Shown: positions 40,999 to 63,696 of the stretch, piece after piece | Numbering within the stretch: position 1 is the stretch's first letter | Layout of the letters: each line of letters begins with the position of its first letter | Source of the DNA: Winogradskyella endarachnes | GTDB taxonomy: Bacteria; Bacteroidota; Bacteroidia; Flavobacteriales; Flavobacteriaceae | Assembly (NCBI RefSeq): GCF_009741275.1 | Contig: NZ_WOWS01000002.1 | Coordinates: 1-64,000 of the forward strand | Length of the DNA stretch: 64,000 bases | Direction: 5' to 3' | Translations under genes and position numbers: made by a program | The notes under the pieces: model-generated | Databases searched by the model: none | Told to the model about the DNA's origin: nothing | What the model saw: the letters and a program-made list of their open reading frames with translations, nothing else

Positions 40999-43803
40999 AT
41001 GGGTTTTATTAAATATTTTCTCTACACCTTTTTTTTTGTTTTTACTTGTTTTTCTCAGGCTCAGGTATTTTCTCCAATTCAAATCTTTACAACAAAAGAT
41101 TATCAGGCAGAAGATCAAAATTGGTCAATTTCACAATCTGATAATAATTTTATATACGTTGCAAATAATAAAGGATTATTAGAATATAATGGAGCTTCTT
41201 GGAGCGTTTATAATTCTGCTAATCGTGGTATTTTAAGGTCTGTAAAGGTTTATGATAATCACATATATACAGGTGGATACATGGATTTTGGCTTTTGGAA
41301 AAGAGGAAGCAAAGGTCTGCTTATTTATTTGTCTTTAGTTGAAAAATTTAACCTAGACATAAAGGAAGATGAAGAATTTTGGCAGATAACAAAAGTTGGG
41401 GATTTTGTGTTATTTCAATCTTTAGAACGTATTTATGTCTTTAATACTAATAAGAACAATTTTTCGATAATAGATGAGGGGAAAAGAGTAAATAAAATAT
41501 TTAATGTTAATGGTACTATTTATTACCAAATTATTGAAGATGGTGTTTATGAGATAGTAAATGGAAATCCTATATTAAAGTTTTCATCTGATGATATAGC
41601 TAATAATAAATTGATAAACATTTTTGAAACTAAATCTGGGTTATTGCTTCAAACGGAAGAAAGTGGCTTTTATAGTTTTAATAATAATAAGGTAGGTAAA
41701 TGGAAGATTACTTCAGATAAATTGTTGTCTACGTTAAGTGTTTATAGTAGTATAAAATTAAAAAATGGGGACTTTATTTTGGGTACCATATCTAATGGTT
41801 TAATTCATTTAGATAAGGATGGAAATTACTTAATGAAAATCAATCGAAATAATGGGTTGAGTAATAATACAGTACTGTCTATTTTAGAAGATAATTTTGG
41901 AAATATTTGGTTGGGCTTAGATAATGGTATTAATGTTGTTAACATTAACTCGCCGTTTAAAGTTTACAAGGATAAACTGGGTAGTTTAGGTACGGTATAT
42001 GCCTCTGCTAAATTTAATGGATTCTTGTATTTAGGAACAAATCATGGCTTATTTTATAAACCTATTGATTCTAATGAAAAATTTCGATTTATACCAGGTA
42101 CCAAGGGGCAGGTTTGGGACTTGTCGGTTCTCTATGGTGATTTATTTTGTGGACATGATAAAGGAACTTTTGTTGTTAAAGGAGAGGATGTTGAAGTTGT
42201 TTCCGCGGAATTAGGAACATGGAGTGTTAAGAAAATTAGTGGTTTTCCTAATCTACTTATTCAAGGTAATTATAGAGGTTTAAATATTTTAGAGAAAAGA
42301 AGCGGTAAATGGCATTTTAGAAATAAAATAGAAGGATTTAATATATCCTCAAGATATTTTGAGTTTGTTAATTCTCAAGAGTTATTGGTAAGTCATGAGT
42401 ATAAAGGTGTATACAATATTAGGCTAGATAAAGATTTTAATGCTGTAAAGGATTATGAAAAAACACAAATTAATTCGGGTATAAAATCTGGTATTTTTAA
42501 GTATAATAATGAGGTTTTATATAGCGTAAGCGAAGGTGTTTTTGTTTATAGTCAACCAAAAAAGAAATTTGTAAGAGATAGTCTTTTAAGTGCTACTTTT
42601 AGTGGTGAGAATTATGTTTCAGGAAAATTGATAACTGAAAAAAATAGTAATAGACTATGGGGTTTTTCTAAGAATGATATTATATATGTTGAGCCAGGGA
42701 AATTAGATAACGTTCCTAAAATCAATAGAATAGCAATTTCTAGTGAAATACGAAAAACAAAGTCCTCTTTCGAAAATATTTTAGAGTTAGATACCAATCA
42801 ATATTTAATTGGCACAACGGAAGGCTATTTAATTGTAAATGTAAATATGATTGCTCAAAAACCGTTGAATATTTATTTGAATGAGGTTTCCAACGGAAGT
42901 CAGCCTAATGATTTATCACCCTTAAACCTAGATAGTATTCATACGTTTAAGAATAAAATTAACAATTTTAAGTTTAAATATAGTGTTACTAATTATAATG
43001 CTTTTTCATCTTCTAAATTTCAATATAAGCTAACAGGTATTTATGATAATTGGAGCCCTTGGTCTAGGACTTCAGAAGTAATTTTTAAAAATCTACCACA
43101 TGGCGATTACATTTTTGAAGCAAGAGCTATTACTGATGGTCTTGTGTCTAATAATGTAATTACATATCAATTTACAATAGAGAGGCCATGGTATCTTAAA
43201 ACTCTAGCTATTATTGTATATGTTCTCTTGGCAATACTTATTATATATATATTGTATTACTTTAATAAAAGACATTACAAAAAAATACAGGATAAACTTA
43301 TTGAAAAGAAGCAAAGACAATTAGAATTAGAACAGTTAGAAAATCAACGTCAGTTAATTCAATTTAAAAACAAAAATTTACAATTAGATATTGAAAATAA
43401 AAATAGAGAACTTGGCATGGCAACAATGAATTTAGTAAAACGAAATGAATTGTTGAGTAATATTAAAAGCGAATTATCTAAGAGCAAAAGCCTAGCGGAA
43501 GTTAACAAGGTAATAAAAACAATTAATTCTAGTATTAACGATAATAGCGATTGGGATTTGTTTGAAAAAGCATTCAATAACGTTGATAAAGATTTTATGC
43601 AGAGAATAAAATCCTTACATCCTACAATCACCCCTAACGATCTGCGTTTATGTGCGTATTTAAGGTTAAATCTATCTTCTAAAGAAATCGCTCCTCTATT
43701 AAATATTTCTCATAAAAGTGTAGAAGTTAAGCGATATCGTTTGCGTAAAAAGCTGGGTTTAGACCATAAAGAGAGCTTATCAAATTATATAATCGAACTT
43801 TAG
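40999..43803 (+). CDS. Membrane-spanning propeller/LuxR-HTH transcriptional regulator
   Basis: The frame opens at TTG 40972, but ATG 40999 starts the signal-like segment (MGFIKYFLYTFFFVFTCFSQ), giving 934 residues. Order: two periplasmic beta-propeller parts with Reg_prop-type units (WSISQSDNNFIYVANNKGL, ILEDNFGNIWLGLDNGIN); a Y_Y_Y domain (FQYKLTGIYDNWSPWS, about 640-730); one membrane segment (about 734-755); a coiled coil; and a C-terminal LuxR-type HTH (NDLRLCAYLRLNLSSKEIAP, about 880-934). There is no histidine kinase or receiver domain, so it is not a hybrid two-component system: it is a one-protein sensor with the HTH on the cytoplasmic side. It probably senses glucan fragments in the periplasm and controls the susC operon next to it. 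Confidence 0.88.
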   Translation: MGFIKYFLYTFFFVFTCFSQAQVFSPIQIFTTKDYQAEDQNWSISQSDNNFIYVANNKGLLEYNGASWSVYNSANRGILRSVKVYDNHIYTGGYMDFGFWKRGSKGLLIYLSLVEKFNLDIKEDEEFWQITKVGDFVLFQSLERIYVFNTNKNNFSIIDEGKRVNKIFNVNGTIYYQIIEDGVYEIVNGNPILKFSSDDIANNKLINIFETKSGLLLQTEESGFYSFNNNKVGKWKITSDKLLSTLSVYSSIKLKNGDFILGTISNGLIHLDKDGNYLMKINRNNGLSNNTVLSILEDNFGNIWLGLDNGINVVNINSPFKVYKDKLGSLGTVYASAKFNGFLYLGTNHGLFYKPIDSNEKFRFIPGTKGQVWDLSVLYGDLFCGHDKGTFVVKGEDVEVVSAELGTWSVKKISGFPNLLIQGNYRGLNILEKRSGKWHFRNKIEGFNISSRYFEFVNSQELLVSHEYKGVYNIRLDKDFNAVKDYEKTQINSGIKSGIFKYNNEVLYSVSEGVFVYSQPKKKFVRDSLLSATFSGENYVSGKLITEKNSNRLWGFSKNDIIYVEPGKLDNVPKINRIAISSEIRKTKSSFENILELDTNQYLIGTTEGYLIVNVNMIAQKPLNIYLNEVSNGSQPNDLSPLNLDSIHTFKNKINNFKFKYSVTNYNAFSSSKFQYKLTGIYDNWSPWSRTSEVIFKNLPHGDYIFEARAITDGLVSNNVITYQFTIERPWYLKTLAIIVYVLLAILIIYILYYFNKRHYKKIQDKLIEKKQRQLELEQLENQRQLIQFKNKNLQLDIENKNRELGMATMNLVKRNELLSNIKSELSKSKSLAEVNKVIKTINSSINDNSDWDLFEKAFNNVDKDFMQRIKSLHPTITPNDLRLCAYLRLNLSSKEIAPLLNISHKSVEVKRYRLRKKLGLDHKESLSNYIIEL

Positions 43804-43852
43804 TACCTATACGAGTCCATAATTTACCTATACATTACCTATACAATTATGG
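43804..43852 (+). promoter_or_regulatory. Phased TACCTATAC direct repeats (candidate operator)
   Basis: TACCTATAC occurs three times, at 43804, 43825 and 43836, with start-to-start spacing of 21 and 11 bases (near two and one helical turns). The last two copies are enclosed by a perfect 8-bp inverted repeat, CCATAATT (43817-43824) and AATTATGG (43845-43852), followed by TTTTT. It starts directly after the regulator stop and about 200 bases before susC. It may be an operator for the neighbouring regulator or a weak terminator of the regulator gene, or both. Confidence 0.5.
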
Positions 43853-44051
43853 TTTTTAACACTTTTTTCTGTTGCATTGTTAATTATTGTTAAGACCCAA
43901 ATTATAGTGCAAATTCTATAATTTAAAAGGCTTTCTGTTGTGTTATTATTATTTTTAACCTATTAATTTTATGATGTATGTTTTTTGTATAGTGGTATTT
44001 TAAGAATTTACTAATGATAAATTTTAAATTGCAGTAACTAAATAATAAACT

Positions 44052-47000
44052 ATGAAAATAAAACTTTTAGGGCTCATTACCTTCATTTTTACAATGGCGG
44101 TTTATGGGCAAAATGTAAATGTTTCTGGAACAGTTATAGAAGCTTCTTCAGGACAACCTTTACCAGGTGTTAACGTAGTTGTTAAAAACACATCAAAAGG
44201 AGCATCATCAAATTTTGATGGTGAATTTACTTTAAATGATGTGCCTATAAACTCTGTAATCGTTATTTCATATCTGGGTTTTGTAACACAAGAGATTACT
44301 ATTATAAATAGTGACCCACTTAGTATTTCACTAGAAGAAGATGCGGAGTCTTTAAGTGAAGTGGTGGTTATTGGGTATGGAACTCAGAAAGTAACCAATG
44401 TATCGGGTGCTATTTCAACAGTAAAATCAGAGTCAATAGAAAAACTAAAACCGCTTAGAGTTGAAGAAGCTTTACAAGGTAGTGCCTCAGGTGTATCGGT
44501 AATTCAAAGTGGTTCACCAGGGAGTAAACCTACTGTTTTGGTTCGTGGTATTCCTTCATTTACTGGTACAGATCCAGTTGTTATTATTGATGGTGTTCCA
44601 CAGAGTTTAGACGATTTAAACTCTATTAATTCAGCAGACATTAAGTCCCTTAATATCCTTAAAGATGCAGCTTCAACAGCAATTTATGGTGTTAAAGGTG
44701 GTAATGGCGTTGTGGTGGTTACTACTAAAGGTGGAAGAAATAACGAGAAAGCAGAATTTTCTTTTAATACATATACTGGTGTGCAATCGGTAGATCGAAA
44801 ATTAGGTTTGTTAAACGCTACGGAATATGCTGCAATGATAAATGAAGGAAGCGTTGTTTCAGGGGGAGATATTATTTTTTCTGACCTTTCTGTTTTAGGT
44901 GAAGGCACCGATTGGCAAGATGAGGTTTTTAAAGACGCGAGTGTTTCTTCTCATACTTTCTCAGCTAGAGGTGGAACAGAAAAAGTTGGATACTTCTTGT
45001 CTACTGGATATTTAACACAAGGAGGTATTGTTGGTGGAGAAGAAAAATCTAATTTTAATAGGGTTAATTTTACGGCTAATGTAGATTTTCAATTAACTTC
45101 TAAGTTAAAATTTATATTAAATACGAGTTATGCTAACATAAAAAGTAAATCTGTTGCGGAAAATTCTTTTAATTCTATATTAGGTAATGCAATAAATTTT
45201 GATCCTACAGTTTCTGTTTATAATGATGATTCAGATGATTTTGCTACATACGGTTATAGTAATTTATTATTGTCAGAAATCTTTAATCCTGTTCAAAGAT
45301 TAAATGATACTTACAATGAAAGCAATGGAAACAAATTGTATGGAAAGTTTGAAATTCAATACGACATACTAAAAAATCTTAAGATTACATCAAGATTTGG
45401 ATATACATATTGGAATCAAGTTGGAAAAAGTTTCACTCCTTTAGCATACTACGGCCCAAATAATGTATCTAGTGACTATAATTCAGACGGAACTGTAAAA
45501 ACGCAAGTTGTAGATAATGGAGATGGCACAACAACTACAATTCCATCTTTTCACAATAGTGTTTCAGAATATACTAACTCTAATTTTAATTACACATTTG
45601 AAACCTTTGCTAGCTACGGATTTAACCTTAATGATATTCATAATTTCGATGTAGTTTTAGGGATTTCTAGAAGTAAATCTACTGGAGAAGGTTTTGGTGC
45701 AACTAGGCAAGATGTAAGAGATAATTCTTGGGAATGGGCAGATATAAGTGCTGCTACAGGTGTTAATACAGAACTTAATACCAATGCATATACAGGTTAC
45801 AGTTATCAAAATTTAGAGCGTAGAAATGTTTCTTACTTTAGTAGAATTAACTATGATTATAATGGAAAATATTTAGCATCATTCTCTGCAAGACGAGATG
45901 GGTCTATTGCTTTTGGTGATGATAACAAATTTGCTAACTTTTATGCAGGTTCATTAGGTTGGGTTGTTACAAATGAAGATTTTTTTAATGTAGATGCTAT
46001 TAATTTCTTAAAAATTAGGGGAAGTTATGGTACGGTAGGTAACGAGAATGTAGACCCTCAATACGTAAGTATTACAGTAGGTGGTCCTAGTTATAATTCT
46101 ACTGCTAATAGTAATGGATATACCTTTGGAAGTGAATTTGTATCTGGAGCTACGGTAAATTCATTTAGTAATACAACTTTAAGTTGGGAAGAACAAACCC
46201 AATATAATATTGGTTTTGATGCTACTTTTTTTAATAACAATTTTTCACTAACAGCTGATTATTTTAATAAATCAGTTGAAGGTTTACTTTTTACAGATGC
46301 ACCACCACTTTATGCTGGTACTTCAGAGCCTGTAACCTCTAATATTGGTAGTACAGAAAGTAAAGGAATAGATTTAACACTTGGATATACAAATACAGGT
46401 GCAAAAAAGTTCAAAGTAAATACCTCTGTAACTTTTACAACATCCAAAAATGAAGTTACTGAAACTAATAGTGATGGTACTGCATTTGTTGCAGGTGGTA
46501 GCTATTTTAATGGTCAGTCTCAATTAGCTACTCGTTTTGAAAAAGGATTTACACCTGGTTATTTTTATGGTTACCAGACCAATGGTTTATTTCAAAATCA
46601 GGCAGACATAGAAGCGCATGCAACACAAGATGGTGCTTTACCTGGAGACATAAGATTTGTAGATACTAATAATGATGGTGTTATAAATGATGAAGATAAA
46701 ACAGAAATTGGTGATCCTTTTCCAGATTTTACAGTAGGTTGGAATTTAGCCTTTGAATTTAAAAATTTCGATTTTAGCATGTTCACATACGCGTCTGTTG
46801 GAAATGACATCTTTAGGGCTTATGAACGTAACGCACAGTTTACTAATAAAGACAGAAGTATTTTAAGTCGTTGGACAGGAGAAGGCACAACTAATGATGC
46901 TAATAGTCCGCGTTACACATTTTCAGATACTAACAGTAATATTAGACCATCAGATAGATATGTAGAAGACGGAAGTTTTATTAAAATTAAGAGCTTAATA

Positions 47001-47201
47001 TTAGGGTATACTTTACCAGAGTCATTAAGTTCAGTATTTAGTAAAGTTCGTTTATATGCCCAAGCTAAAAATTTATTAACACTTACCGAGTATACAGGTT
47101 ACGACCCAGAAATTTCTGGAGGTATTTTAGATACAGGTATAGATAGAGGTGCATACCCACAAGCTAGAACGGTTCTAATTGGTTTAGACCTTAAATTTTA
47201 A
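44052..47201 (+). CDS. SusC/RagA-type TonB-dependent outer-membrane transporter
   Basis: The 1049-residue protein has a signal peptide ending AVYGQ, then a carboxypeptidase regulatory-like domain (VSGTVIEASSGQPLPGVNVV, about 23-105). A TonB-dependent plug follows (EVVVIGYGTQKVTNVSGA, VLVRGIPSFTG, VVIIDGVPQ, IYGVKGGNGVVVVTTKGG), then a 22-strand barrel with an aromatic C-terminal strand. It imports glycan oligomers, with SusD as a lid, using TonB energy. It is 19 bases from susD and is the first gene of the induced operon. Confidence 0.96.
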   Translation: MKIKLLGLITFIFTMAVYGQNVNVSGTVIEASSGQPLPGVNVVVKNTSKGASSNFDGEFTLNDVPINSVIVISYLGFVTQEITIINSDPLSISLEEDAESLSEVVVIGYGTQKVTNVSGAISTVKSESIEKLKPLRVEEALQGSASGVSVIQSGSPGSKPTVLVRGIPSFTGTDPVVIIDGVPQSLDDLNSINSADIKSLNILKDAASTAIYGVKGGNGVVVVTTKGGRNNEKAEFSFNTYTGVQSVDRKLGLLNATEYAAMINEGSVVSGGDIIFSDLSVLGEGTDWQDEVFKDASVSSHTFSARGGTEKVGYFLSTGYLTQGGIVGGEEKSNFNRVNFTANVDFQLTSKLKFILNTSYANIKSKSVAENSFNSILGNAINFDPTVSVYNDDSDDFATYGYSNLLLSEIFNPVQRLNDTYNESNGNKLYGKFEIQYDILKNLKITSRFGYTYWNQVGKSFTPLAYYGPNNVSSDYNSDGTVKTQVVDNGDGTTTTIPSFHNSVSEYTNSNFNYTFETFASYGFNLNDIHNFDVVLGISRSKSTGEGFGATRQDVRDNSWEWADISAATGVNTELNTNAYTGYSYQNLERRNVSYFSRINYDYNGKYLASFSARRDGSIAFGDDNKFANFYAGSLGWVVTNEDFFNVDAINFLKIRGSYGTVGNENVDPQYVSITVGGPSYNSTANSNGYTFGSEFVSGATVNSFSNTTLSWEEQTQYNIGFDATFFNNNFSLTADYFNKSVEGLLFTDAPPLYAGTSEPVTSNIGSTESKGIDLTLGYTNTGAKKFKVNTSVTFTTSKNEVTETNSDGTAFVAGGSYFNGQSQLATRFEKGFTPGYFYGYQTNGLFQNQADIEAHATQDGALPGDIRFVDTNNDGVINDEDKTEIGDPFPDFTVGWNLAFEFKNFDFSMFTYASVGNDIFRAYERNAQFTNKDRSILSRWTGEGTTNDANSPRYTFSDTNSNIRPSDRYVEDGSFIKIKSLILGYTLPESLSSVFSKVRLYAQAKNLLTLTEYTGYDPEISGGILDTGIDRGAYPQARTVLIGLDLKF

Positions 47202-47220
47202 CATCTAAAAATAAACTAGT

Positions 47221-48720
47221 ATGAAAAACATAAAAAATAATATAGGGTTAATCATCATACTTTCAATCTTTTTAGGTTGTTCAGATGTGGTAGAATTTGA
47301 TCCGCACGATGAATATCAAGTTACAGAAGCTGATTATTTACAATCAGAATCAGATTATCAAACCATGGTAGTCAGTTGTTACACACCTACACAATGGTTG
47401 AATCAAGTAATTGTGGTTGGTGATATTGCTTCAGATAATGCTGTTGCAGGAGGAGAAAATGCATCAGATGTTGTTGCACTACAACAAATGGATGATTATA
47501 ATATTTTAACAAATAATAGCACTTTAGAAGATTTGTGGACTTCAGCATATGAAGGTGTAAACAGAACAAATTATTTAACAGATAATAGAGATGTTAATCT
47601 AGCTGGCGAATCAATAGATTTTGAAGGAAAAGATGCGCTTTATGGAGAGGTTCATTTTTTAAGAGCATTTTATTATTTTAATTTGGTGAAAATGTTTGGA
47701 GATGTGGTCTTGTTTACCGATCACAAATTAGGCTTATCAGATTTTGGAAATTTTGAGAGATCACCAAAGGAAGATGTATATGCTCAAATAGAAATTGATT
47801 TATTAGCTGCTATAGATGTTTTACCTACGCAGCAATCACAACAAGGTAGAATTACAAAATATGCTGCACAAGCTTTATTAGGTAAAGTCTATCTGTATCA
47901 AGAAAAATTTGATGAAGCGGTACCTGTGCTACAAAGCGTGGTTGATGGTCCATTTAGCTTAGTAGAAAACTTTGACGATATCTTTTTATTTGAAGGTGAA
48001 AATGGTCCAGAATCGGTATACGAAGTGCAATACTCTAACGGACAACCTTATTATAACTGGGCAGGGCAGACTAGAGGACAAGGAAATTATGCTGTTCAAC
48101 AATGTGGAGTGAGAGGTTTTAATGGTACAGCAGATATGCCTTATAACTCAGGGTGGAGCACAAATTTACCTACTCAAGATTTAGCAAGTGCTTATGAAGA
48201 TGGTGACCAAAGAAAAGAGGCTACCACCTTTGATGTAGAAGCTTATGCAAATGATAACCCTAGTTTAAATGTTACATACCAAGTAGCGCCTTATAAAAAT
48301 ACAGGGTTATATAATAAAAAATATCTACCTCGTAAAGGTCAAACTAGTGGCCAAGTTGAATTAAACTATGAAAACAATCAAAGAACTATTAGATATGCTG
48401 AAGTATTGTTAATGGCAGCAGAGGCAAATCTTCGAGCTTCATCGGTAAATCAAGCTTTAGCGCAAACTTATTTAGATATGGTAAGAGATAGAGCTTTTGG
48501 TGATCAAGACCATAGAGTTACAGCAACTGTTCAAGCGGTATGGGATGAGAGACGTTTAGAGTTAGCAATGGAAGGTGATCGTTTTTTCGATTTGGTAAGA
48601 ACGGGCCAAGTTGATAGTGTATTGGGTAATTTAGGTTACAATTCTGCAACAGAAGGATTATTTCCTATTCCTCAAAGGGAGATTGAGATATCAGGATTGT
48701 CTCAAAACAATGGCTACTAA
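47221..48720 (+). CDS. SusD/RagB-type surface glycan-binding lipoprotein
   Basis: The 499-residue lipoprotein has lipobox IFLGCS (Cys20). The N-terminal SusD-like part (YNILTNNSTLEDLWTSAYEGVNRTN) and TPR-like helices hold KDALYGEVHFLRAFYYFNLV, and the C-terminal RagB part ends with VWDERRLELAMEGDRFFDLVRTG and FPIPQREIEI, both family hallmarks. It forms the hinged lid on the SusC barrel and captures glycan at the surface. It follows susC directly. Confidence 0.96.
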   Translation: MKNIKNNIGLIIILSIFLGCSDVVEFDPHDEYQVTEADYLQSESDYQTMVVSCYTPTQWLNQVIVVGDIASDNAVAGGENASDVVALQQMDDYNILTNNSTLEDLWTSAYEGVNRTNYLTDNRDVNLAGESIDFEGKDALYGEVHFLRAFYYFNLVKMFGDVVLFTDHKLGLSDFGNFERSPKEDVYAQIEIDLLAAIDVLPTQQSQQGRITKYAAQALLGKVYLYQEKFDEAVPVLQSVVDGPFSLVENFDDIFLFEGENGPESVYEVQYSNGQPYYNWAGQTRGQGNYAVQQCGVRGFNGTADMPYNSGWSTNLPTQDLASAYEDGDQRKEATTFDVEAYANDNPSLNVTYQVAPYKNTGLYNKKYLPRKGQTSGQVELNYENNQRTIRYAEVLLMAAEANLRASSVNQALAQTYLDMVRDRAFGDQDHRVTATVQAVWDERRLELAMEGDRFFDLVRTGQVDSVLGNLGYNSATEGLFPIPQREIEISGLSQNNGY

Positions 48721-48734
48721 AAAAAGAAAATAAT

Positions 48735-50825: not shown

Positions 50826-50836
50826 AAAAGAAAATT

Positions 50837-52459: not shown

Positions 52460-52490
52460 TTATTAGAGTAATTTGTTGAATTAGTTTATC

Positions 52491-52518
52491 AGGTCGGGCT
52501 ATTTCAGTCCGACCTTTT
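52491..52518 (+). terminator. Intrinsic terminator inside the utilisation locus
   Basis: AGGTCGGGCT pairs with AGTCCGACCT (10 bp with one G-U) around an ATTTC loop, then TTTT. It lies 31 bases after the GH16 stop and about 35 bases before the phosphorylase start, so it separates the surface-capture genes from the downstream enzymes. Confidence 0.8.
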
Positions 52519-52550
52519 AAAAAATGTTTATTTACAATAGAAGTATTCCC

Positions 52551-55500: not shown

Positions 55501-56012
55501 AAATTATTGGTAGATTATTAGAGCATTATTACGAAATTAATGAAGGTATTGGAGCTCATAAATCACCAGAGTTATATGGTGCATTTCCAACAGACCCATA
55601 TTCGCACACACCAGGAGGAAAAGGTGCACAACAACCAGGTATGACAGGCCAAGTTAAAGAGGATGTGTTGTGTCGTTTTGGAGAAATTGGCGTGTTTGTT
55701 AAAGACGGAAAACTATTTTTTAACCCAAGACTTTTAAGAAAAGAAGAATTTTTAAGCAAACCCAAAGAGTTTTCCTACACAAGTATTGCCAAAAATATTG
55801 AAACTATTCAGTTAGAAAAAGATACGCTTTGTTTCACGTATTGCCAAGTACCAATCATTTATACATTAGGTACTGAAAATAAAATCCAAGTTATAAATAA
55901 CAATGGTTCAACAATTGATTTTAAGGATTTACAATTAGATGAAATTACGAGCGATAAGATTTTTAAACGCACAGGAGAAGTAAAACAAATTGAGGTAACT
56001 GTAAAGAAGTAA
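52551..56012 (+). CDS. Cytoplasmic glycoside phosphorylase, best fit GH149 (beta-1,3-glucan phosphorylase)
   Basis: The frame opens at 52524; ATG 52551 (MTKNPIYIGSKKASINQLE) gives 1153 residues. There is no signal peptide or lipobox, unlike the neighbouring hydrolases, so it is cytoplasmic. An N-terminal beta-sandwich (YYKITNSDSMRPFFMSLVS) is followed by an (alpha/alpha)6-type catalytic region with DPWSYIGYWGDHQIIYLLKF and GGIWLNTQRPEWNDANNALV, and a C-terminal jelly-roll part. The size and these segments fit GH94-like phosphorylases, and of these GH149 (about 1100 residues, beta-1,3-glucan) fits best; GH161 or GH94 are alternatives. Predicted reaction: phosphate attack on imported laminari-oligosaccharides to give glucose-1-phosphate. 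Family call is from memory of motifs and context. Confidence 0.65.
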   Translation: MTKNPIYIGSKKASINQLEVKGELVSLYNEDYYKITNSDSMRPFFMSLVSNSNHWLFISSNGALTAGRKNANNALFPYYTDDKITESLETTGSKTIIQVHKEGKTFLWEPFSNKYLGVYTTQRNLYKNSYGNKVVFEEINTDLGLTYRYQWNSSDQFGFVKKAEIINNTAQTIDVTILDGIQNILPYGLASDFQNATSNLIDAYKKCELETDTGIGIFALSAIIVDKAEPSEALKANTVWFSGLENPTHLISSLQLDAFRTGKTITEEKDIRAEKGAYFISKDLSLEANEEANWMFVAEVNQTISDINAISEKIKSDSNLEVLVQQDIDAGTKNLLELVGASDGIQLGEDKLRNTRHFANTLFNIMRGGIFDDNYKIEKQDFVNYIAKANVKVSKNKEAILNDLPEIFSVDHIRAIADQDDDANFKRLCYEYLPLKFSRRHGDPSRPWNKFSINTRSEVDGSKILDYEGNWRDIFQNWETLAHSYPAFMEGMIHKFFNATTFEGYNPYRVTKDGFDWETIEADDPWSYIGYWGDHQIIYLLKFLEFIEKHYPNKLAGSFTQDLFVYANVPYKLKSYQDTLKNPKDTVDFDYELDKKINTIKERLGADGALLRDQNYFIYKVNLIEKLLATVLAKVSNFIPEGGIWLNTQRPEWNDANNALVGNGVSMVTLYYLRRFINFFEGIVQDSSSPKYNLSVELKTFFEGVVSTLNDNVKVLAGKISDKARKTILDGLGTAGSDYRLKIYDTGFSSDKETISKENLLEFFTVLKQYLDHTIKANKREDNLYHAYNLMTVENDTEVSISYLPEMLEGQVAVLSSGYLEPKEALSLLDGLKASALFREDQYSYILYPNKELSRFVDKNNIPAKSVEKSRLLKQLITDGNTQIIEKDVLGVYHFNGNFNNADSLKAALNKLPEEKYDDLITSDKSIVLDIFEEMFDHKSFTGRSGTFYGYEGLGSIYWHMVSKLLLATQENCLLAINNNESEEIIGRLLEHYYEINEGIGAHKSPELYGAFPTDPYSHTPGGKGAQQPGMTGQVKEDVLCRFGEIGVFVKDGKLFFNPRLLRKEEFLSKPKEFSYTSIAKNIETIQLEKDTLCFTYCQVPIIYTLGTENKIQVINNNGSTIDFKDLQLDEITSDKIFKRTGEVKQIEVTVKK

Positions 56013-56028
56013 ATTAATAATTGAGTAT

Positions 56029-57318
56029 ATGTTAAAGGGTTTCAAATTATCGATAGTTGTAATTATAGTACTTCTGGCATTTTCTTGTATAAATGAAAAT
56101 AAGAAAAGCGAAGCACTATCGATAAATGAAAACCACAGTATCAATGCAGAAAACATTTTAGGAAACCCAGAATATTTAGCTATTTCTTATGGTGGTTACC
56201 GTCATAAGGATAGAAATATTCAGCCAACAATTCCAGAACTTAAGGAAGATATTAAAATCTTAAGCGCTATGGGAATAAAAGTACTGAGAACCTATAATGT
56301 ACATTTTGAGCAAGCTGCCAACTTGTTAAAAGCAATTACAGAATTAAAGCAAGAAGATTCAAATTTCGAAATGTATGTAATGCTTGGTATATGGATTGAT
56401 TGTAAAAATGCTTTCAACTCTAGTAATGGAGCGCCAGACCATAATCAAGAAAGTGAACGAAATCCGGTTGAGGTTAAAACCGCTGTAGAGTTAGCAACGC
56501 AATACCCAGAAATTGTAAAAATTCTTGCTGTTGGTAACGAAGCTATGGTAAAATGGGCAACATCTTATTATGTAGAACCTTGGATTATTTTAAAATGGGT
56601 TAATCATCTTCAAGATTTAAAACAACGAGGCGATTTACCTAAAGATTTATGGATAACTAGTTCAGATGATTATTCATCTTGGGGAGGAGGCGATGCCATC
56701 TATCATACCAAAGATTTAGAGAAATTGGCGCATGCTGTAGATTACATTTCTATGCATACGTATGCTTATCATAATTCGCATTACAATCCAGAATTTTGGA
56801 AAGTTCCTGAAAATGAAGAAAATTTATCAGACAAAGAAAAAATTGACGCAGCCATGTTGCGTGCACTAGAATTTGCTAAAACGCAATACGATTCAGTTGT
56901 AAATTACATGAAAAGTATTGGTGTTAATAAGCCAATTCATATCGGAGAAACCGGTTGGGCTTCAATATCTGGAGGTCATTATGGTAAAAATGGGTCTAGA
57001 GCTACAGACGAATATAAGCAAGGGTTGTATTATAAACATATTCGTAATTGGACTAATAAAAATAATATATCAGTTTTTTATTTTGAAGCCTTTGATGAAC
57101 AATGGAAAGATGCAGCCGATGAATTAGGTTCTGAAAATCATTTTGGCTTAATCAATCTAAAAAGTGAAGCAAAGTATCCCTTGTGGAGTTTGGTAGATGA
57201 CGACGTTTTTAAGGGATTAACAAGAGACGGCAAACCAATTACAAAGACATATAACGGAAATTTAGACGCTTTAATGAAAGATGTCTTAGTACCAAATACA
57301 GATTATCCAAGAGATTAA
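56029..57318 (+). CDS. GH17 beta-1,3-glucanase lipoprotein
   Basis: The 429-residue protein has lipobox LAFSC (Cys near 20). It is a clan GH-A barrel with the GH17 features AISYGGYRH, KVLRTYNVHF, acid/base Glu171 in AVGNEA and nucleophile Glu307 in HIGETGWAS. GH17 enzymes cleave beta-1,3-glucan, mostly endo-acting or transglycosylating. It starts 16 bases after the phosphorylase stop and is 2 bases from the next enzyme, so these are one unit. It probably trims laminarin in the periplasm or on the surface. Confidence 0.9.
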   Translation: MLKGFKLSIVVIIVLLAFSCINENKKSEALSINENHSINAENILGNPEYLAISYGGYRHKDRNIQPTIPELKEDIKILSAMGIKVLRTYNVHFEQAANLLKAITELKQEDSNFEMYVMLGIWIDCKNAFNSSNGAPDHNQESERNPVEVKTAVELATQYPEIVKILAVGNEAMVKWATSYYVEPWIILKWVNHLQDLKQRGDLPKDLWITSSDDYSSWGGGDAIYHTKDLEKLAHAVDYISMHTYAYHNSHYNPEFWKVPENEENLSDKEKIDAAMLRALEFAKTQYDSVVNYMKSIGVNKPIHIGETGWASISGGHYGKNGSRATDEYKQGLYYKHIRNWTNKNNISVFYFEAFDEQWKDAADELGSENHFGLINLKSEAKYPLWSLVDDDVFKGLTRDGKPITKTYNGNLDALMKDVLVPNTDYPRD

Positions 57319-57320
57319 TA

Positions 57321-58376
57321 ATGAAGAAATTTTTAGTCATAATCACTGCTATATTCACTTTTGTTTCGTGTAAAAAACAGACAAAAAATGAAGAGGTTTC
57401 ATTTAAAGAGGAAGCTTCAAAATTTGATGTAGTTTCAGTATCGGGAAGACAATTATTGTTAAATGATGAACTTTATTTAATAAAAGGCATTTGTTATCAT
57501 CCTGTACCAAAAGGAGATTCTATTAAAAGAGATTTTGGCACCTTAACCCAAGATTTAAAACTAATGAAAGAAGCTGGCATAAATACTATAAGAGTTTATG
57601 CACCAATTGTAGAAGAACGTGTTCTCGATGAAATTAGTGAAGCTGGTATTAAAGTAATTGTAGGATTTGGTTACAACCAAGGTGGAAAAAATGATATCGT
57701 TTCGGGCACATTTATAGATTATGTCAATACATATAAAAACCACAAGGCTATTTTGATGTGGGAATTGGGTAATGAGTACAACTATCATCCAGAATGGTTT
57801 AATGGTGATATTAAAAACTGGTACACTGCAATGAATGATGCTGCAGCTCTAATTCATAAAAATGACCCATCGCACCCTGTAACTACGGCACATGGCGATT
57901 TACCAAAAGAATTAGCGCGTTCTATGAGTCCAAATATTGATGTTTGGGGAATGAACGTGTACCGTTCTGTAAGACCAGAAACCATTTTTAAAGAGTGGAA
58001 AGAAGTCAGTGATAAACCTATGTATTTATCCGAAACAGGAGCAGACAGTTATATGCAAATGGCAACCGATAAATATAAGCAAGGTGTAAATGAATTAATG
58101 CAAGCTGATGCTACAGAAATAATTTTAAATGCCACATTTAGTGGTAAAGATATTTGCTCTGGAGTTACTTTATTTCAATTTACAGATGGCTGGTGGAAAG
58201 CCGGAAACAACAATGTACAAGATACAGGAGGAACAGCACCAAATAGTACAGGAGTTCCTTTTGATGGTAGCCCAAACGAAGAATTTTGGGGTATTGTAGA
58301 TATCGATAGAAATAAGAAAAAAGTATATGAAATTGTAAAAGACATCTATTTAAAGGAAAATAAAATTGAAGATTAG
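57321..58376 (+). CDS. Clan GH-A glycoside hydrolase lipoprotein, family uncertain
   Basis: The 351-residue protein has lipobox TFVSC and starts 2 bases after the GH17 gene. It has a compact TIM barrel with LNDELYLIKGICYHPVPKGD, KEAGINTIRVYAP, acid/base Glu152 in LMWELGNEYNYHP and nucleophile Glu238 in YLSETGADSY. This clan GH-A pattern recalls the GH2 barrel, GH17 and GH72, but the protein lacks the GH2 sandwich domains and does not fit GH17 cleanly. Given its place it probably acts on beta-1,3-glucan or its oligomers, perhaps exo-acting or as a transglycosylase; the specificity is not predictable from sequence. Confidence 0.75.
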   Translation: MKKFLVIITAIFTFVSCKKQTKNEEVSFKEEASKFDVVSVSGRQLLLNDELYLIKGICYHPVPKGDSIKRDFGTLTQDLKLMKEAGINTIRVYAPIVEERVLDEISEAGIKVIVGFGYNQGGKNDIVSGTFIDYVNTYKNHKAILMWELGNEYNYHPEWFNGDIKNWYTAMNDAAALIHKNDPSHPVTTAHGDLPKELARSMSPNIDVWGMNVYRSVRPETIFKEWKEVSDKPMYLSETGADSYMQMATDKYKQGVNELMQADATEIILNATFSGKDICSGVTLFQFTDGWWKAGNNNVQDTGGTAPNSTGVPFDGSPNEEFWGIVDIDRNKKKVYEIVKDIYLKENKIED

Positions 58377-58509
58377 ATAGAAATAATTTAACTATTAAAT
58401 CCTCTATATAATTTCTCTATAAGATGAGCCTTTTTAAGAAACATTTTGTTGCGTTTTTTAAAGGATAAGAATAAACTAAAACTAAATAACTAAAACTAAT
58501 ATCTAGAAT

Positions 58510-60018
58510 ATGACAATAATAAGATATGGCTTAGCAGCACTTTTAATTTTCACAATTATGAGCTGCAATTCCGATAAAAAAGAAATTAAAAACTTAGATG
58601 TCGAAATTTATGAAACCTCAGAAAGTGGTAACAAGCTTACAAGGATTACTGAGTTTTCAACAGCAGACTCTTTAGCTGTTATTAAGATTTTACCAGAACA
58701 AAAATTTCAAACTATAACTGGTTTTGGAGGTTCGTTTACAGAATCTTCGGCTTACTTATTAAACAAGTTAAGTAAAAAGAATCGCGATACAATTCTTCAA
58801 GCTTATTTTGCAGAAGGTGGTGCACAGTACTCATTAACCAGAACGCATATTGCATCTTGTGATTTTTCTTTAAATAATTACACTTATGCGCCAAAGGAAG
58901 ATGATATGGAAATGGAGAGTTTCAATATTGATGAGGACCGAGACGATTTAATTCCTATGATAAAAGATGCACAAGCCATTTCTCAAGATGGTTTTAAAAT
59001 TATTTCTTCACCATGGACGTCACCACCTTGGATGAAAGATAACAAAGCTTACGTTGGCGGAAAATTATTACCAAAATATTACGATGCATTTGCACTGTAT
59101 TTTTCTAAATATTTAGAAGCTTACAAAGCTGAAGGTATAGATATTTGGGGTTTAACACCAGTTAATGAGCCACACGGAAATGGTAATAATTGGGAAAGCA
59201 TGCACTTTTCACCAGAAGAAGAAACAGATTTTGTACAAAATCATTTAGGACCTAAACTCGAATCAGATGGATTTGGAGACATAAATATCTTAGGCTACGA
59301 CCAAAACCGAAAAGGAATACAAGAATGGGTAGATGCTATGTATAAAGATGAAGCTTCTTCTAAGTATTTTGATGGATTAGCCATTCATTGGTACGAAAGT
59401 ACATTCGATTATTTACCAAAAGAATTACAATATGCACACAACAAATCACCAAACAAATACCTTATAGAAACGGAAGGTTGTGTAGATTCTGAAATTCCTA
59501 AATGGCAAGATGATGCTTGGTATTGGAAAAAAGAAGCAACTGATTGGGGTTGGGATTGGGCTTCGCCAGAAGACAAGCACTTGCATCCAAAATATGCGCC
59601 AGTAAATCGTTATGCTAGAGACATCATTGGTTGTTTAAATAATTGGGTTGACGGATGGGTAGATTGGAACATGGTTTTAGACCGACAAGGTGGACCAAAT
59701 TGGTTTGAAAATTGGTGTGTTGCTCCTGTTATTGTAGATCCAGATTCTGATGAAGTTTATTTCACACCACTTTATTATACAATGGCTCACTTTAGTAAAT
59801 ATATAAGACCAGGAGCAGAAGTTATTGGTGTAGAAAATACAGATGACGATTTAATGGTTACTGCTGCTAAGAATCCAGATGGTTCTATTGCAGTAGTTTT
59901 ATTTAATGAAGGTACATCATCTAAGAACTTTGCGTTGACACTTGGAGAAGAAAATGTAAGCGTAAAAATTAATGCACAAGCTATCCAGACTATTATAATT
60001 CCTAAAAAAGTTAGATAA
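58510..60018 (+). CDS. GH30 beta-1,6-glucanase-type lipoprotein
   Basis: The 502-residue lipoprotein has lipobox TIMSC. GH30 motifs are FQTITGFGGSFTESSAYLL, SLTRTHIASCDFSLNNYTY, SSPWTSPPWMKDN, acid/base Glu220 in PVNEPHGNG and nucleophile Glu322 in LIETEGC. A short beta-sandwich follows the barrel, as usual in GH30_1 and GH30_3. In laminarin loci this family removes beta-1,6-linked glucose branches so that GH16 and GH17 can finish the chain. A 133-base gap upstream may hold its own promoter; the transporter gene follows after 1 base. Confidence 0.92.
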   Translation: MTIIRYGLAALLIFTIMSCNSDKKEIKNLDVEIYETSESGNKLTRITEFSTADSLAVIKILPEQKFQTITGFGGSFTESSAYLLNKLSKKNRDTILQAYFAEGGAQYSLTRTHIASCDFSLNNYTYAPKEDDMEMESFNIDEDRDDLIPMIKDAQAISQDGFKIISSPWTSPPWMKDNKAYVGGKLLPKYYDAFALYFSKYLEAYKAEGIDIWGLTPVNEPHGNGNNWESMHFSPEEETDFVQNHLGPKLESDGFGDINILGYDQNRKGIQEWVDAMYKDEASSKYFDGLAIHWYESTFDYLPKELQYAHNKSPNKYLIETEGCVDSEIPKWQDDAWYWKKEATDWGWDWASPEDKHLHPKYAPVNRYARDIIGCLNNWVDGWVDWNMVLDRQGGPNWFENWCVAPVIVDPDSDEVYFTPLYYTMAHFSKYIRPGAEVIGVENTDDDLMVTAAKNPDGSIAVVLFNEGTSSKNFALTLGEENVSVKINAQAIQTIIIPKKVR

Positions 60019-60019
60019 T

Positions 60020-61429
60020 ATGTCTGCAATAGCCAATAAAGTTTCGCTTGGAAAAAAGATAGCATTTGGAGTAGGTATGCTTGCCAATCAAATGTTTCCT
60101 GCTGTTATTGGTATTTTCATTGTTGTACTGGTTAAAGATTTAGGTTTTCCTGGATGGATGTGGGGCGTGGTGTCTTTAGCACCAAGAATTTTTGATGCCA
60201 TTACAGACCCAATTATGGGTTACATTTCAGATAACACTAAATCGCGATACGGAAGACGACGACAATACGTTTTTATCGGTGCCATTATTATGGGAATTGC
60301 CTTTGTGATAATGTGGCAATTATTTAGAGAAAATTCATTAGACTTCAGCTTTTGGTATTTTTTGTTTACCTCTTTTCTGTTTTATTTAGGATTAACCATT
60401 TTCAGTGTGCCGTACGTAGCCATGGGTTATGAAATGAGTGATGATTTTCATGAACGTACAAGTATTATGGCTGTTGCACAATGGATTGGGCAATGGGCTT
60501 GGGTAATTGCACCTTGGTTTTGGGTAATTATGTACGATCAAGAGTGGTATGCTACTGCAGATATAGCTGTAAGGGAATTGGCGATTTGGGTTGGTGTTAT
60601 ATTTGCTATTTGCGCAATGGTTCCTGCTATTTTTATTAAAAGTAAGTCAACTGTAAATCAAAATTATTCGGCACTAACCATTAAAAATATTGGTGGTAGC
60701 TTAAAGGAAATTGGCAATAACTTTGTAGAGGCATTTAAATCAGTACCTTTTAAAAAACTATGTTTTGCAACGTTTTTTGTGTTTAATGCTTTTAATACTG
60801 TTGCAAGTTTTACCTTTTTTATTATTGTTTATTATCTTTTTAACGGAGACGCTGCAGCTGCTGGTATTTGGCCAACGCTTTTTGGAAGTGTTGGAGCTTT
60901 AGTTACCACCTTTATTGTGATTCCAATAGTGGCAAAAATGTCGAAAGCATTAGGAAAGAAAAAAGCATTTATGCTTTCTCAAGGTATATCAATAGCAGGT
61001 TATATAATGTTATGGTTTTTATTTATTCCGGGAAAACCATATATGTTTCTATTTGCACTTCCATTTTTTTCATTTGGTATAGGAGGTTTATTTACGCTTA
61101 TGATGTCTATGACAGCAGATGTTATTGACTTAGATGAATTGCAAACAGGCAAGCGTCGCGAAGGTGTTTTCGGTGCAATATATTGGTGGATGGTAAAATT
61201 TGGATTTGGTATTGCAGGTGGCTTAAGCGGTCTAATTTTAACCATAATAGGTTTTGATTCATTATTAGAAGTACAACCTGAAGGGGCAATAACTGGTTTG
61301 AGGTTATTTTTCTCTGGGTTTCCTATAGTAGGAACCCTTGCCGCAATGTATATAATGCGTAATTATGATTTGTCAGAAACGCGTGCAAATGAGATAAGAG
61401 CAGAATTAGAAAAGAGAAAATCCAATTAA
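60020..61429 (+). CDS. GPH-family (MFS) sugar:cation symporter
   Basis: The 469-residue protein has about 12 membrane segments and the glycoside-pentoside-hexuronide family motifs: DAITDPIMGYISDNTKSRYG in the first cytoplasmic loop, RRRQYVF, and DVIDLDELQTGKRREGVFG in the second half. It starts 1 base after the GH30 stop, so the two are translated together. It probably carries glucose or short laminari-oligosaccharides across the inner membrane, to feed the cytoplasmic phosphorylase encoded upstream. Confidence 0.93.
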   Translation: MSAIANKVSLGKKIAFGVGMLANQMFPAVIGIFIVVLVKDLGFPGWMWGVVSLAPRIFDAITDPIMGYISDNTKSRYGRRRQYVFIGAIIMGIAFVIMWQLFRENSLDFSFWYFLFTSFLFYLGLTIFSVPYVAMGYEMSDDFHERTSIMAVAQWIGQWAWVIAPWFWVIMYDQEWYATADIAVRELAIWVGVIFAICAMVPAIFIKSKSTVNQNYSALTIKNIGGSLKEIGNNFVEAFKSVPFKKLCFATFFVFNAFNTVASFTFFIIVYYLFNGDAAAAGIWPTLFGSVGALVTTFIVIPIVAKMSKALGKKKAFMLSQGISIAGYIMLWFLFIPGKPYMFLFALPFFSFGIGGLFTLMMSMTADVIDLDELQTGKRREGVFGAIYWWMVKFGFGIAGGLSGLILTIIGFDSLLEVQPEGAITGLRLFFSGFPIVGTLAAMYIMRNYDLSETRANEIRAELEKRKSN

Positions 61430-61506
61430 TGTTAAACGGTATTTAGAGGGATACTTTTTTAATAGCGCAATTGTTACTAAAATAAATAATAAACTAAATA
61501 AACACA

Positions 61507-63696
61507 ATGATTATGAGAAAATTTACATTTTTTTTAATCCTAATGACAATGTCATTTGGGTTTACTCAGAATTTAGCTCTAACAGGTAGTGCTTCCGCTT
61601 CTACTGAAGGGCAACCAGCAAGTAATGCTATAGATGGAAATGCAGCAACCAGGTGGGAATCAGCTTTTGAAGATCCGCAATGGATTACTATAGATCTTGG
61701 CGCAAGTTATACTATTGGGCAAGTAGTGCTTAATTGGGAAGGTGCTTATGCAAGTACATACGAAATTCAAATTTCTGATGATGCAACTTTTGCTACCTAT
61801 ACAACAATTTATGCTACAACTTCAGGAGATGGAGGTATAGATAATCTTATTGTTGATGGTACAGGGCAATACGTAAGAATGTATGGAACAGTTAGAGCAA
61901 CACCTTATGGTTATAGTTTGTGGGAATTCGAAATTTACGAATACAATGCGGCAACTGATGCGACATTGTCAGATTTACAAGTAGATTCTGCTACCATATC
62001 TGGTTTTGATCCAGGTATAACAAGCTATGACTATGAATTGCCGGCAGGTACAACAGTAGCACCAACAATTACTTCTGCAACAGCAACGGTTACAACAGGA
62101 ACAAATGTAACTATTACCCAGGCGTCATCTGTGCCAGGAAATGGGACGGTTGTAGTTACTGCTGCAGATGGTACAACTACAGAAACATATACGGTTTCTT
62201 TTGATGTACCAGCTGAAACCACACCAACCTCTGCAGCACCAACACCACCAGCAAGAAACACTTCAGATTACATATCAATATTTAGTGATGCTTATACCAA
62301 TGTAGCTACGGTAAATCTAAATCCAAATTGGGGACAATCTACAGTGCAATCGGTTGTGGATATTGCAGGTAATAACACATTGAGCTATGATAGTTTTAAT
62401 TACCAAGGAACAGATTTTGGAGGTGCACAAGATATTTCTAACATGGAATATTTACATGTAGATATTTGGACAAATACAGTAGCAACTAATATTTATGTTA
62501 TTAGTTCTGGACCAGAAATACCACATGCTATTTCGTCAGTTGATGGTTCTTGGCAATCATTAGATATACCTGTTGCTGGTATCACAGGAGATTTAACCAG
62601 TGCTATTCAATTTAAATTTGATGGTGGAGATGGAACAGGTATTATGTATATAGATAACTTATACTTTTGGAAAAACCCTTCTGCTTCAGGTACTGATGCT
62701 ACCCTAAGTGATTTACAAGTAGATAATGCAACAATAAGTGGTTTTTCTTCAAATACATTTAATTATACATACGAACTCGCACCAGGAACCACTGTTGTAC
62801 CGCAAATAACTTCTGCTACACCAACAGATGCAAATGCAACTTCTGTAACAATAACACAAGCTACCGACATACTTGGAAATGCCACTGTAGATGTAGTGTC
62901 TCAAGATGGAACAGTTACTGAGACTTATACTGTAACTTATTTGTTATCTGGTCCGGATGCTGCTGCACCAACACCAACACATGATGAAGTTAATAACCAA
63001 GTAATTTCAATTTTTAGTGATGCTTATACTGATTTAGCTGGTACTAACTATAACCCAGATTGGGGCCAATCTACAGTTGTTACCATAGAGTCTGTAATGA
63101 GTAATGATGCTCTAAAATATGCTGGCTTAAATTATCAAGGTACTAATTTAGGAAGTACAGATGGTGGTGTTTCTCAAGATGTATCTTCTACTACACACTT
63201 ACATTTAGATTTTTGGACAGCAAATTCAACTGTAATAGATTTTTATGTATTAGACCAAGGTGCTGGTGAGGTGTTTTATTCTTTGCCAATTCCGGCTGCT
63301 TTAGGTGGAGATTGGGTTAGTGTAGATATTCCGTTAAGTCATTATACTTCAGGAGGAGAAGTATTAACAGATATTCATCAGTTTAAGGTTACAGGAGATG
63401 GAACGGTTTATTTTGATAACATCTATTTTTATAATGAAACAGCTTTAAGCGTTGGTGATTTTGAAGTTGAAGAATTTAAGGTGTATCCTAATCCTACAAA
63501 CAGCGTATGGAATATTACTAGCAGTACTCAAATAAATATCGTAGAAGTATTTAATGTAATGGGTAAAAAAATTATCACAATCCAACCAAACGCAAATGAA
63601 ACTAGTATAGATGCTACATCTTTAAATTCGGGAATTTACTTTGTAAAAATTGATGCAGCAACAGGTTTAAAAACCATTAAATTAATTAAAGAATAA
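61507..63696 (+). CDS. T9SS type A secreted protein with discoidin domain and two glycan-binding-like modules
   Basis: The 729-residue protein (start 61507, or Met 61513) has a signal peptide ending FGFTQ. An F5/8 type C (CBM32-like) domain is at about 20-150 (ASNAIDGNAATRWESAF, PQWITIDLG). Two cadherin-like beta-sandwich units (DATLSDLQVDSATISGF, about 152-237; DATLSDLQVDNATISGF, about 398-480) each precede one copy of the module found in the PKD lipoprotein (APTPPARNTSDYISIFSDAY, about 241-392; about 484-645). The C terminus is a Por sorting domain (FKVYPNPTNS, GIYFVKI). There is no catalytic domain, so it is a secreted binding protein, likely for the same glucan. It is 77 bases after the symporter. 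Confidence 0.85.
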   Translation: MIMRKFTFFLILMTMSFGFTQNLALTGSASASTEGQPASNAIDGNAATRWESAFEDPQWITIDLGASYTIGQVVLNWEGAYASTYEIQISDDATFATYTTIYATTSGDGGIDNLIVDGTGQYVRMYGTVRATPYGYSLWEFEIYEYNAATDATLSDLQVDSATISGFDPGITSYDYELPAGTTVAPTITSATATVTTGTNVTITQASSVPGNGTVVVTAADGTTTETYTVSFDVPAETTPTSAAPTPPARNTSDYISIFSDAYTNVATVNLNPNWGQSTVQSVVDIAGNNTLSYDSFNYQGTDFGGAQDISNMEYLHVDIWTNTVATNIYVISSGPEIPHAISSVDGSWQSLDIPVAGITGDLTSAIQFKFDGGDGTGIMYIDNLYFWKNPSASGTDATLSDLQVDNATISGFSSNTFNYTYELAPGTTVVPQITSATPTDANATSVTITQATDILGNATVDVVSQDGTVTETYTVTYLLSGPDAAAPTPTHDEVNNQVISIFSDAYTDLAGTNYNPDWGQSTVVTIESVMSNDALKYAGLNYQGTNLGSTDGGVSQDVSSTTHLHLDFWTANSTVIDFYVLDQGAGEVFYSLPIPAALGGDWVSVDIPLSHYTSGGEVLTDIHQFKVTGDGTVYFDNIYFYNETALSVGDFEVEEFKVYPNPTNSVWNITSSTQINIVEVFNVMGKKIITIQPNANETSIDATSLNSGIYFVKIDAATGLKTIKLIKE

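Follow-up and report, generated by a model that had tools for sequence, protein, structure and literature searches.

Gene content of the locus

We examined positions 40999-63696 of a 64-kb stretch of Winogradskyella endarachnes DNA (contig NZ_WOWS01000002.1, positions 1 to 64,000; hereafter the window), which hold a polysaccharide utilization locus (PUL) of laminarin type that includes a glycoside hydrolase (GH) family 149 beta-1,3-glucan phosphorylase. Eleven genes were found, all on the plus strand, and are given below; 'post-cysteine charge' is the net charge at positions +2 to +6 after the lipidated cysteine, and T9SS stands for type IX secretion system.

40999..43803, plus strand: putative regulator; Reg_prop and Y_Y_Y domains (sensor type), C-terminal LuxR-type helix-turn-helix (GerE 22.7 bits, slightly below the cut-off of 23.5)
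44052..47201, plus strand: SusC/RagA TonB-dependent outer-membrane transporter (TIGR04056 810 bits, cut-off 368)
47221..48720, plus strand: SusD lipoprotein, predicted surface (PF07980 91.9 bits; lipobox FLGC; post-cysteine charge -2)
48735..50825, plus strand: PKD-domain lipoprotein, predicted surface (PF18911, PF00801; lipobox VNSC; post-cysteine charge -4)
50837..52459, plus strand: GH16 lipoprotein, predicted surface endo-glucanase (PF00722 78.5 bits; post-cysteine charge -3)
52551..56012, plus strand: GH149 beta-1,3-glucan phosphorylase, predicted cytosolic (NF058639 1814 bits; 6hq6 1620 bits; no signal peptide)
56029..57318, plus strand: GH17 lipoprotein (GH17A type), predicted periplasmic (PF00332; 6fcg 574 bits; post-cysteine charge 0)
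57321..58376, plus strand: GH-A clan lipoprotein (TIM barrel), predicted periplasmic (PF02836 48 bits; post-cysteine charge +3)
58510..60018, plus strand: GH30 lipoprotein, predicted periplasmic debranching enzyme (PF02055 269 bits; post-cysteine charge +1)
60020..61429, plus strand: GPH-family (GPH/MFS_2) inner-membrane symporter, 469 aa, stand-alone, predicted oligosaccharide importer (PF13347 224 bits; TIGR00792 175 bits, below the cut-off of 231)
61507..63696, plus strand: T9SS-sorted protein, F5/8C (CBM32-like) domain and repeated beta-rich domains (PF22633, PF18962, TIGR04183)

From SusC through the GPH symporter, the intergenic gaps measure 1-133 bp. The ATG codons of the regulator (40999) and of the GH149 gene (52551) each come after nine codons of a longer, mechanically called open reading frame (ORF); both starts, as well as the end of the T9SS protein at 63696, had been placed correctly in a first-pass annotation made from the letters alone. 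This annotation had also named the GH16, GH17, GH-A and GH30 families and given all four proteins a lipoprotein signal, in agreement with our domain matches (PF00722, PF00332, PF02836 and PF02055) and with their lipoboxes (LVSC, AFSC, FVSC and IMSC, respectively). Domain searches matched no histidine kinase or receiver domain in the regulator (40999-43803). The PKD lipoprotein is probably a surface glycan-binding protein.

The cluster is a real, well-formed laminarin-type PUL of the published flavobacterial kind, and, unlike most of its relatives, it is missing a second GH17 (GH17B). SusCD, GH16, GH17, GH30 and GH149 all lie within it, which is the gene set that marks laminarin PUL variant 1. 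The PUL of Formosa sp. (FbGH17A, FbGH30 and an MFS-FbGH17B fusion) is also similar, since the window has a GH17A (574 bits to 6fcg, which we take to be the structure of Formosa FbGH17A), a GH30 and an MFS-type transporter. It differs from Formosa in that the symporter stands alone and GH17B is neither fused to it nor found elsewhere in the assembly. Induction by laminarin has been shown for the Formosa PUL (PMC6246565).

We compared the window with the best 80 of 280 related loci. With variant 1 of marine Flavobacteriia it shares SusCD, GH16, GH149, an unassigned GH, GH17 and GH30 (PMC10108472, PMC13188888; gene order in the 80 loci). The difference lies in GH17B, present beside or fused to the symporter in 56 of the 64 GH149 loci that include the whole GPH gene and 1.5 kb or more of sequence past it, as in Formosa and Muricauda. 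PULs with GH149-GH0-GH30_1-GH17 were named variant 1, and their expression was seen during a bloom in the North Sea (PMC10108472), and Bacteroidetes PULs combining GH149 with GH16 and/or GH17 and GH3 and/or GH30_1 had been reported in 2018 (PMC5827456). A variant with GH16, GH30_1 and often two GH17 has been described (PMC6794258), and laminarin PULs are present in almost all studied Winogradskyella genomes (PMC9723794).

A predicted cytosolic GH149 phosphorylase

The 1153-aa protein encoded at 52551-56012 had been described in the first-pass annotation as a phosphorylase without a signal, with its family to be decided between GH149 and GH161 or GH94, a check that could have gone against the phosphorylase call. 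It matched the curated model NF058639 ('GH149_beta_1_3') with 1814 bits (cut-off 1150), covering positions 2-1134 of the 1134 in the model, and scored 1620 bits against the solved GH149 structures 6hq6 and 6hq8. GH94 and GH161 were rejected, given the 45 bits obtained with a cellobiose phosphorylase and the 43 bits with the GH161 protein 9qqk; a Pfam search matched no family. The match to the beta-1,3-oligoglucan phosphorylase Pro_7066 (6hq6, 6hq8) is full-length, and the window enzyme keeps the active-site residues WND, RD, Glu and His (W653-N654-D655, R472-D473, E952 and H960), which are invariant in 80/80 related loci. The structure paper names the WND loop, with the predicted catalytic Asp, and the RD, Glu and His residues of the donor/phosphate site (PMC6771811). 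As for the missing signal, no N-terminal hydrophobic stretch was seen in the window protein or in its relatives from any of the 80 loci. The assembly contains a single GH149, whose closest relative among the matches listed is that of W. litoriviva, with 89% identity.

The characterised GH149 enzymes EgP1 and Pro_7066 phosphorolyse beta-1,3-gluco-oligosaccharides with a degree of polymerization (DP) of 2 and above, unlike the GH161 enzyme PapP, which requires DP 3 (PMC6484121). Hence, GH149 alone could in principle degrade oligosaccharides to glucose-1-phosphate and one glucose. One could argue that the enzyme works in the opposite direction, building a cytosolic beta-1,3-glucan store from glucose-1-phosphate, as phosphorylase reactions can run both ways and GH149 enzymes elongate glucose (PMC6484121). 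We hold this to be extremely unlikely for a gene located within a SusCD uptake cluster and accompanied by a GPH symporter in 64 of the 68 related loci having at least 8 kb downstream of GH149 (4/68 are without it). The symporter had been annotated as lying with the phosphorylase, and both do belong to the same cluster; they do not adjoin, since the symporter sits three genes downstream of GH149, with GH17, GH-A and GH30 in between.

Predicted surface and periplasmic hydrolases

Signals were judged with our own lipobox-pattern and hydropathy scripts. In Bacteroidetes, an acidic motif directly after the lipidated cysteine marks lipoproteins for export to the cell surface (PMC5080379). The net charges after this cysteine in the window are -2, -4 and -3 for SusD, the PKD protein and GH16, and 0, +3 and +1 for GH17, GH-A and GH30. 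The same split was observed across the 80 loci, where a charge of -2 or below was found in 57 of 64 SusD/PKD/GH16 orthologues vs 2 of 150 GH17/GH-A/GH30 proteins (Fisher p ~2e-41, for sequences that are related and not independent). This count leaves out sub-threshold matches, ORFs whose start falls within the first 3 bases of their locus, and proteins lacking a lipobox pattern (GH17 3/76, GH-A 1/22 and GH30 6/62). A stricter lipobox pattern gave the same split with fewer proteins, and among the lower-scoring GH16 paralogues, counted separately, 29 of 40 with a lipobox had a charge of -2 or below. As GH16 carries this acidic signal and GH17, GH-A and GH30 do not, GH16 alone among the hydrolases is predicted to cut at the surface, while the other three are predicted to be periplasmic. 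The first-pass wording, that cutting and debranching take place outside or in the periplasm, is right as to export and is sharpened here to a surface signal on GH16 only.

GH17B is absent here and variable among relatives

Formosa FbGH17B, which is fused to a transporter, converts oligosaccharides to glucose (PMC6246565), and its Muricauda counterpart has no signal, is described as a transglycosylase and is likely cytoplasmic (PMC13188888). The missing signal and the fusion to the symporter end suggest that GH17B is cytosolic. Using a profile made from 15 fused tails, we matched only GH17A in the window (44 bits), and a GH17B protein query against the whole assembly (3.6 Mb, 55 contigs, 99.97% complete) yielded a single 28-bit match, inside GH17A. 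Among the related loci GH17B is a usual but not universal part, being absent from 8/64, and 15/64 have a long symporter ORF of the fused type. A locus without GH17B may still have a copy elsewhere in its genome, a limit that does not apply to the whole-genome counts that follow.

We surveyed 59 Winogradskyella genomes of at least 90% completeness. GH149 was present in 51 of them and GH17A in the same 51, the two genes being adjacent in 51/51 with gaps of 19-126 bp. GH17B was found in 44 genomes, all within the 51 with GH149; it lies no more than 12 kb from GH149 in 43 of the 44 and on another contig in the remaining one. Seven of the 59 genomes, W. endarachnes included, have GH149 without GH17B, and none has GH17B without GH149. 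Several congeners show two tandem GH17A matches, and in two genomes (G024:C56 and G032:C82) one copy has in-frame stops.

Across the family we analyzed 199 genomes from 198 genera (our own genus appears twice), with GH149 in 75 and GH17B in 59. Both were present in 58, GH149 only in 17, GH17B only in 1 and neither in 123 (GH149-only vs GH17B-only, exact McNemar p = 1.4e-4). The lone genome with GH17B and without GH149, G253 (L123:3496-11283), has a GH3 lipoprotein directly upstream of GH17A, at the usual place of GH149, followed by GH30, GPH and GH17B; a swap of GH149 for GH3 has been reported before in Muricauda (PMC13188888). In the accessible parts of the open-access literature, with subscription papers and supplements outside the scope, we came across no report of GH17B being almost restricted to GH149 genomes or lacking in some of them.

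A tree of 65 GH149 proteins, built with a quick method and with support from the Shimodaira-Hasegawa-like approximate likelihood ratio test only, requires 8 changes of the locus-level GH17B label, of which at least 6 are forced by starred branches. The nearest GH149 relatives of the window (L002, L003 and L015) come from loci with GH17B, which follows the symporter directly in L002 and L003. These state changes, together with the GH149-only genomes, indicate that GH17B comes and goes while GH149 stays. The GH-A lipoprotein was considered as a replacement of GH17B and rejected: of the 64 loci whose GPH gene is complete, 19 have the GH-A protein and 45 do not, and GH17B occurs in 14 and 42 of these, respectively.

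Candidates for the last step

The first-pass annotation had argued that, with no GH3 beta-glucosidase in the locus, the phosphorylase is the expected last step. No GH3 was indeed matched among the genes at 40999-63696; by itself the argument is weak, since the genome holds three GH3 genes elsewhere. All three have export signals. Two are lipoproteins on contig C34 with beta-glucosidase-like domains, and the third is an exported GH3/beta-lactamase fusion on C1. GH1 gave no match in the assembly (a control search was positive in 7/14 known genomes), nor did GH94 (PF17167; control positive in 2/14), both searches covering our own genome only, and the GH16 of the locus (50837..52459) is the sole GH16 match in the assembly. 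With the three GH3 exported and GH1, GH94 and GH17B not found, the argument gains weight, and GH149, as the sole predicted cytosolic beta-1,3-glucan cleaver among the searched classes, becomes the expected last step here.

The two C34 genes (L085:13943-19532 and L086:980-13506) flank an SMP-30/gluconolactonase-like gene, in a second sugar-uptake neighbourhood that also has a SusCD pair, an FG-GAP/ASPIC protein and a hybrid two-component regulator. The latter contrasts with the regulator at 40999-43803, which combines a propeller, Y_Y_Y and a LuxR-type helix-turn-helix. A replacement of GH17B by GH3 in the cytosol is not supported, as 19 of 20 GH3 sites in the other six GH17B-less congeners start signal-like; the remaining one was too close to a contig edge for a call.

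An alternative is a mainly hydrolytic route, in which periplasmic GH17 and GH30 together with exported GH3 finish laminarin to glucose, GPH imports the glucose and GH149 plays a minor salvage role. Such a route would fit the general view of polysaccharide pathways as periplasmic hydrolysis followed by monomer import (PMC11345257), and the two lipoprotein GH3 would be at hand for it; moreover, FbGH30, FbGH17A and FbGH17B jointly bring laminarin to glucose in Formosa (PMC6246565). However, the two lipoprotein GH3 genes are located on a different contig, and no GH16 or GH17 was seen among the 10 proteins checked of the C34 and C1 stretches. Besides, the adjacency of GH149 and GH17A in every congener having either gene is steadier than the presence of GH17B and fits a minor role poorly. 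Overall, we consider the hydrolytic route improbable.

Several observations count against a terminal phosphorolysis by GH149. The lipoprotein GH3 pair encoded on the other contig could complete oligosaccharide breakdown in the periplasm, and the substrate of the GPH symporter could be glucose. GH3 occurs in 11/80 related loci (13 ORFs), with an export signal visible in 12/13 and absent, judging from the printed N-termini, in that of L063. No second predicted cytosolic beta-1,3-glucan cleaver was found in the genome among GH1, GH3, GH16, GH94, GH149 and GH17B, a search that did not extend to GH2, GH5, GH116 or other possible cytosolic beta-glucosidases. Finally, 16 genomes of other genera have GH149 only; leaving out the four with GH149 near a contig end, we took 12 loci without GH17B, of which 6 have no nearby GPH and 3 have a GH3 (L115, L118 and L120). 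The PUL type is thus looser beyond close relatives.

A predicted split pathway for laminarin

Taken together, the GH149 assignment and the export signals support the split pathway proposed in the first-pass annotation, as a prediction from sequence. The predicted surface GH16 would cut laminarin, and SusCD would import large oligosaccharides. In the periplasm, GH17, GH-A and GH30 would cut and debranch them; a relative of the GH17A releases chiefly laminaritriose, plus DP 2 and 4 (PMC13188888). The GPH symporter would then import short oligosaccharides, and GH149 would phosphorolyse those with a DP of at least 2, yielding glucose-1-phosphate plus a single glucose. Phosphorolysis spares kinase ATP, so that this ATP would be saved for every glucose but one per oligosaccharide. 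We regard it as quite likely that the locus is a laminarin PUL working in this way, with a surface GH16, periplasmic GH17, GH-A and GH30, and a cytosolic GH149 acting on the imported oligosaccharides.

Laminarin is the probable substrate of the locus, and we have also considered that it might serve another beta-glucan instead, be it mixed-linkage glucan, yeast glucan or a fungal beta-1,3/1,6-glucan. The activity of GH16 enzymes extends to several glucans (PMC13188888), and the GH-A protein falls between families, with relatives that include mixed-linkage glucan enzymes (title of 9p2f). Yet the 574-bit match of GH17A to 6fcg and a gene content resembling that of the laminarin-induced Formosa PUL (PMC6246565) make such a substrate very unlikely.

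In most relatives, the predicted cytosolic GH149 would share the cytosol with GH17B. A broader proposal, which we put forward tentatively and to which we lean slightly less than to its opposite, is that flavobacterial laminarin PULs with GH149 would have phosphorolysis by this enzyme as their core cytosolic exit, with GH17B a dispensable accessory gained or lost at least 6 times. W. endarachnes would then be a natural GH17B knockout that routes all imported laminari-oligosaccharides via glucose-1-phosphate, sparing one ATP for each glucose but one per chain. Whether the last oligosaccharides are hydrolysed or phosphorolysed would set the energy yield and the phosphate demand of the degraders. 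With 44 genomes having GH149 and GH17B and 7 having GH149 only, the role of each predicted cytosolic enzyme is testable between close relatives, and Winogradskyella offers a ready natural experiment on both.

The GH-A lipoprotein, the T9SS protein and flanking genes

The best two Protein Data Bank sequence groups for the GH-A protein (57321-58376) were GH158 (9oro, 48.9 bits) and GH157 (9fz9 and 9g4n, 38.3 bits), both partial matches at ~20-24% identity. These beta-1,3-glucan-binding GH-A enzymes are among its best matches in sequence and in fold; in the fold search, made with a model of mean pLDDT (predicted local distance difference test) 74, GH2 ranked as high as GH158 and GH157. In an alignment of 21 sequences, E152 and E238 are invariant, and clan GH-A membership suggests that they may be the catalytic residues. 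The alignment contains the window protein and 20 of the 22 proteins from related loci, leaving out a near-copy (L003) and a fragment (L046). Matches above 300 bits were obtained in 22/80 loci, and there were 45 weaker matches (40-300 bits), mostly of ~1040-1075 aa.

The gene after the symporter varies between loci. In the window it is the T9SS protein (61507-63696), whose N-terminal domain matches discoidin domains of a Paenibacillus glucanase/chitosanase with 138 bits and whose middle seems repeated. We aligned it with 10 of the 15 proteins scoring above 140 bits in the related loci. A fold search with its model (predicted TM-score, pTM, 0.36) gave TM-scores of ~0.1-0.15 only and no usable match. 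Immediately upstream of the cluster, at 37414-40623, lies a gene whose 1069-aa product has a CHU_C (T9SS type B) domain and matches a propeller weakly.

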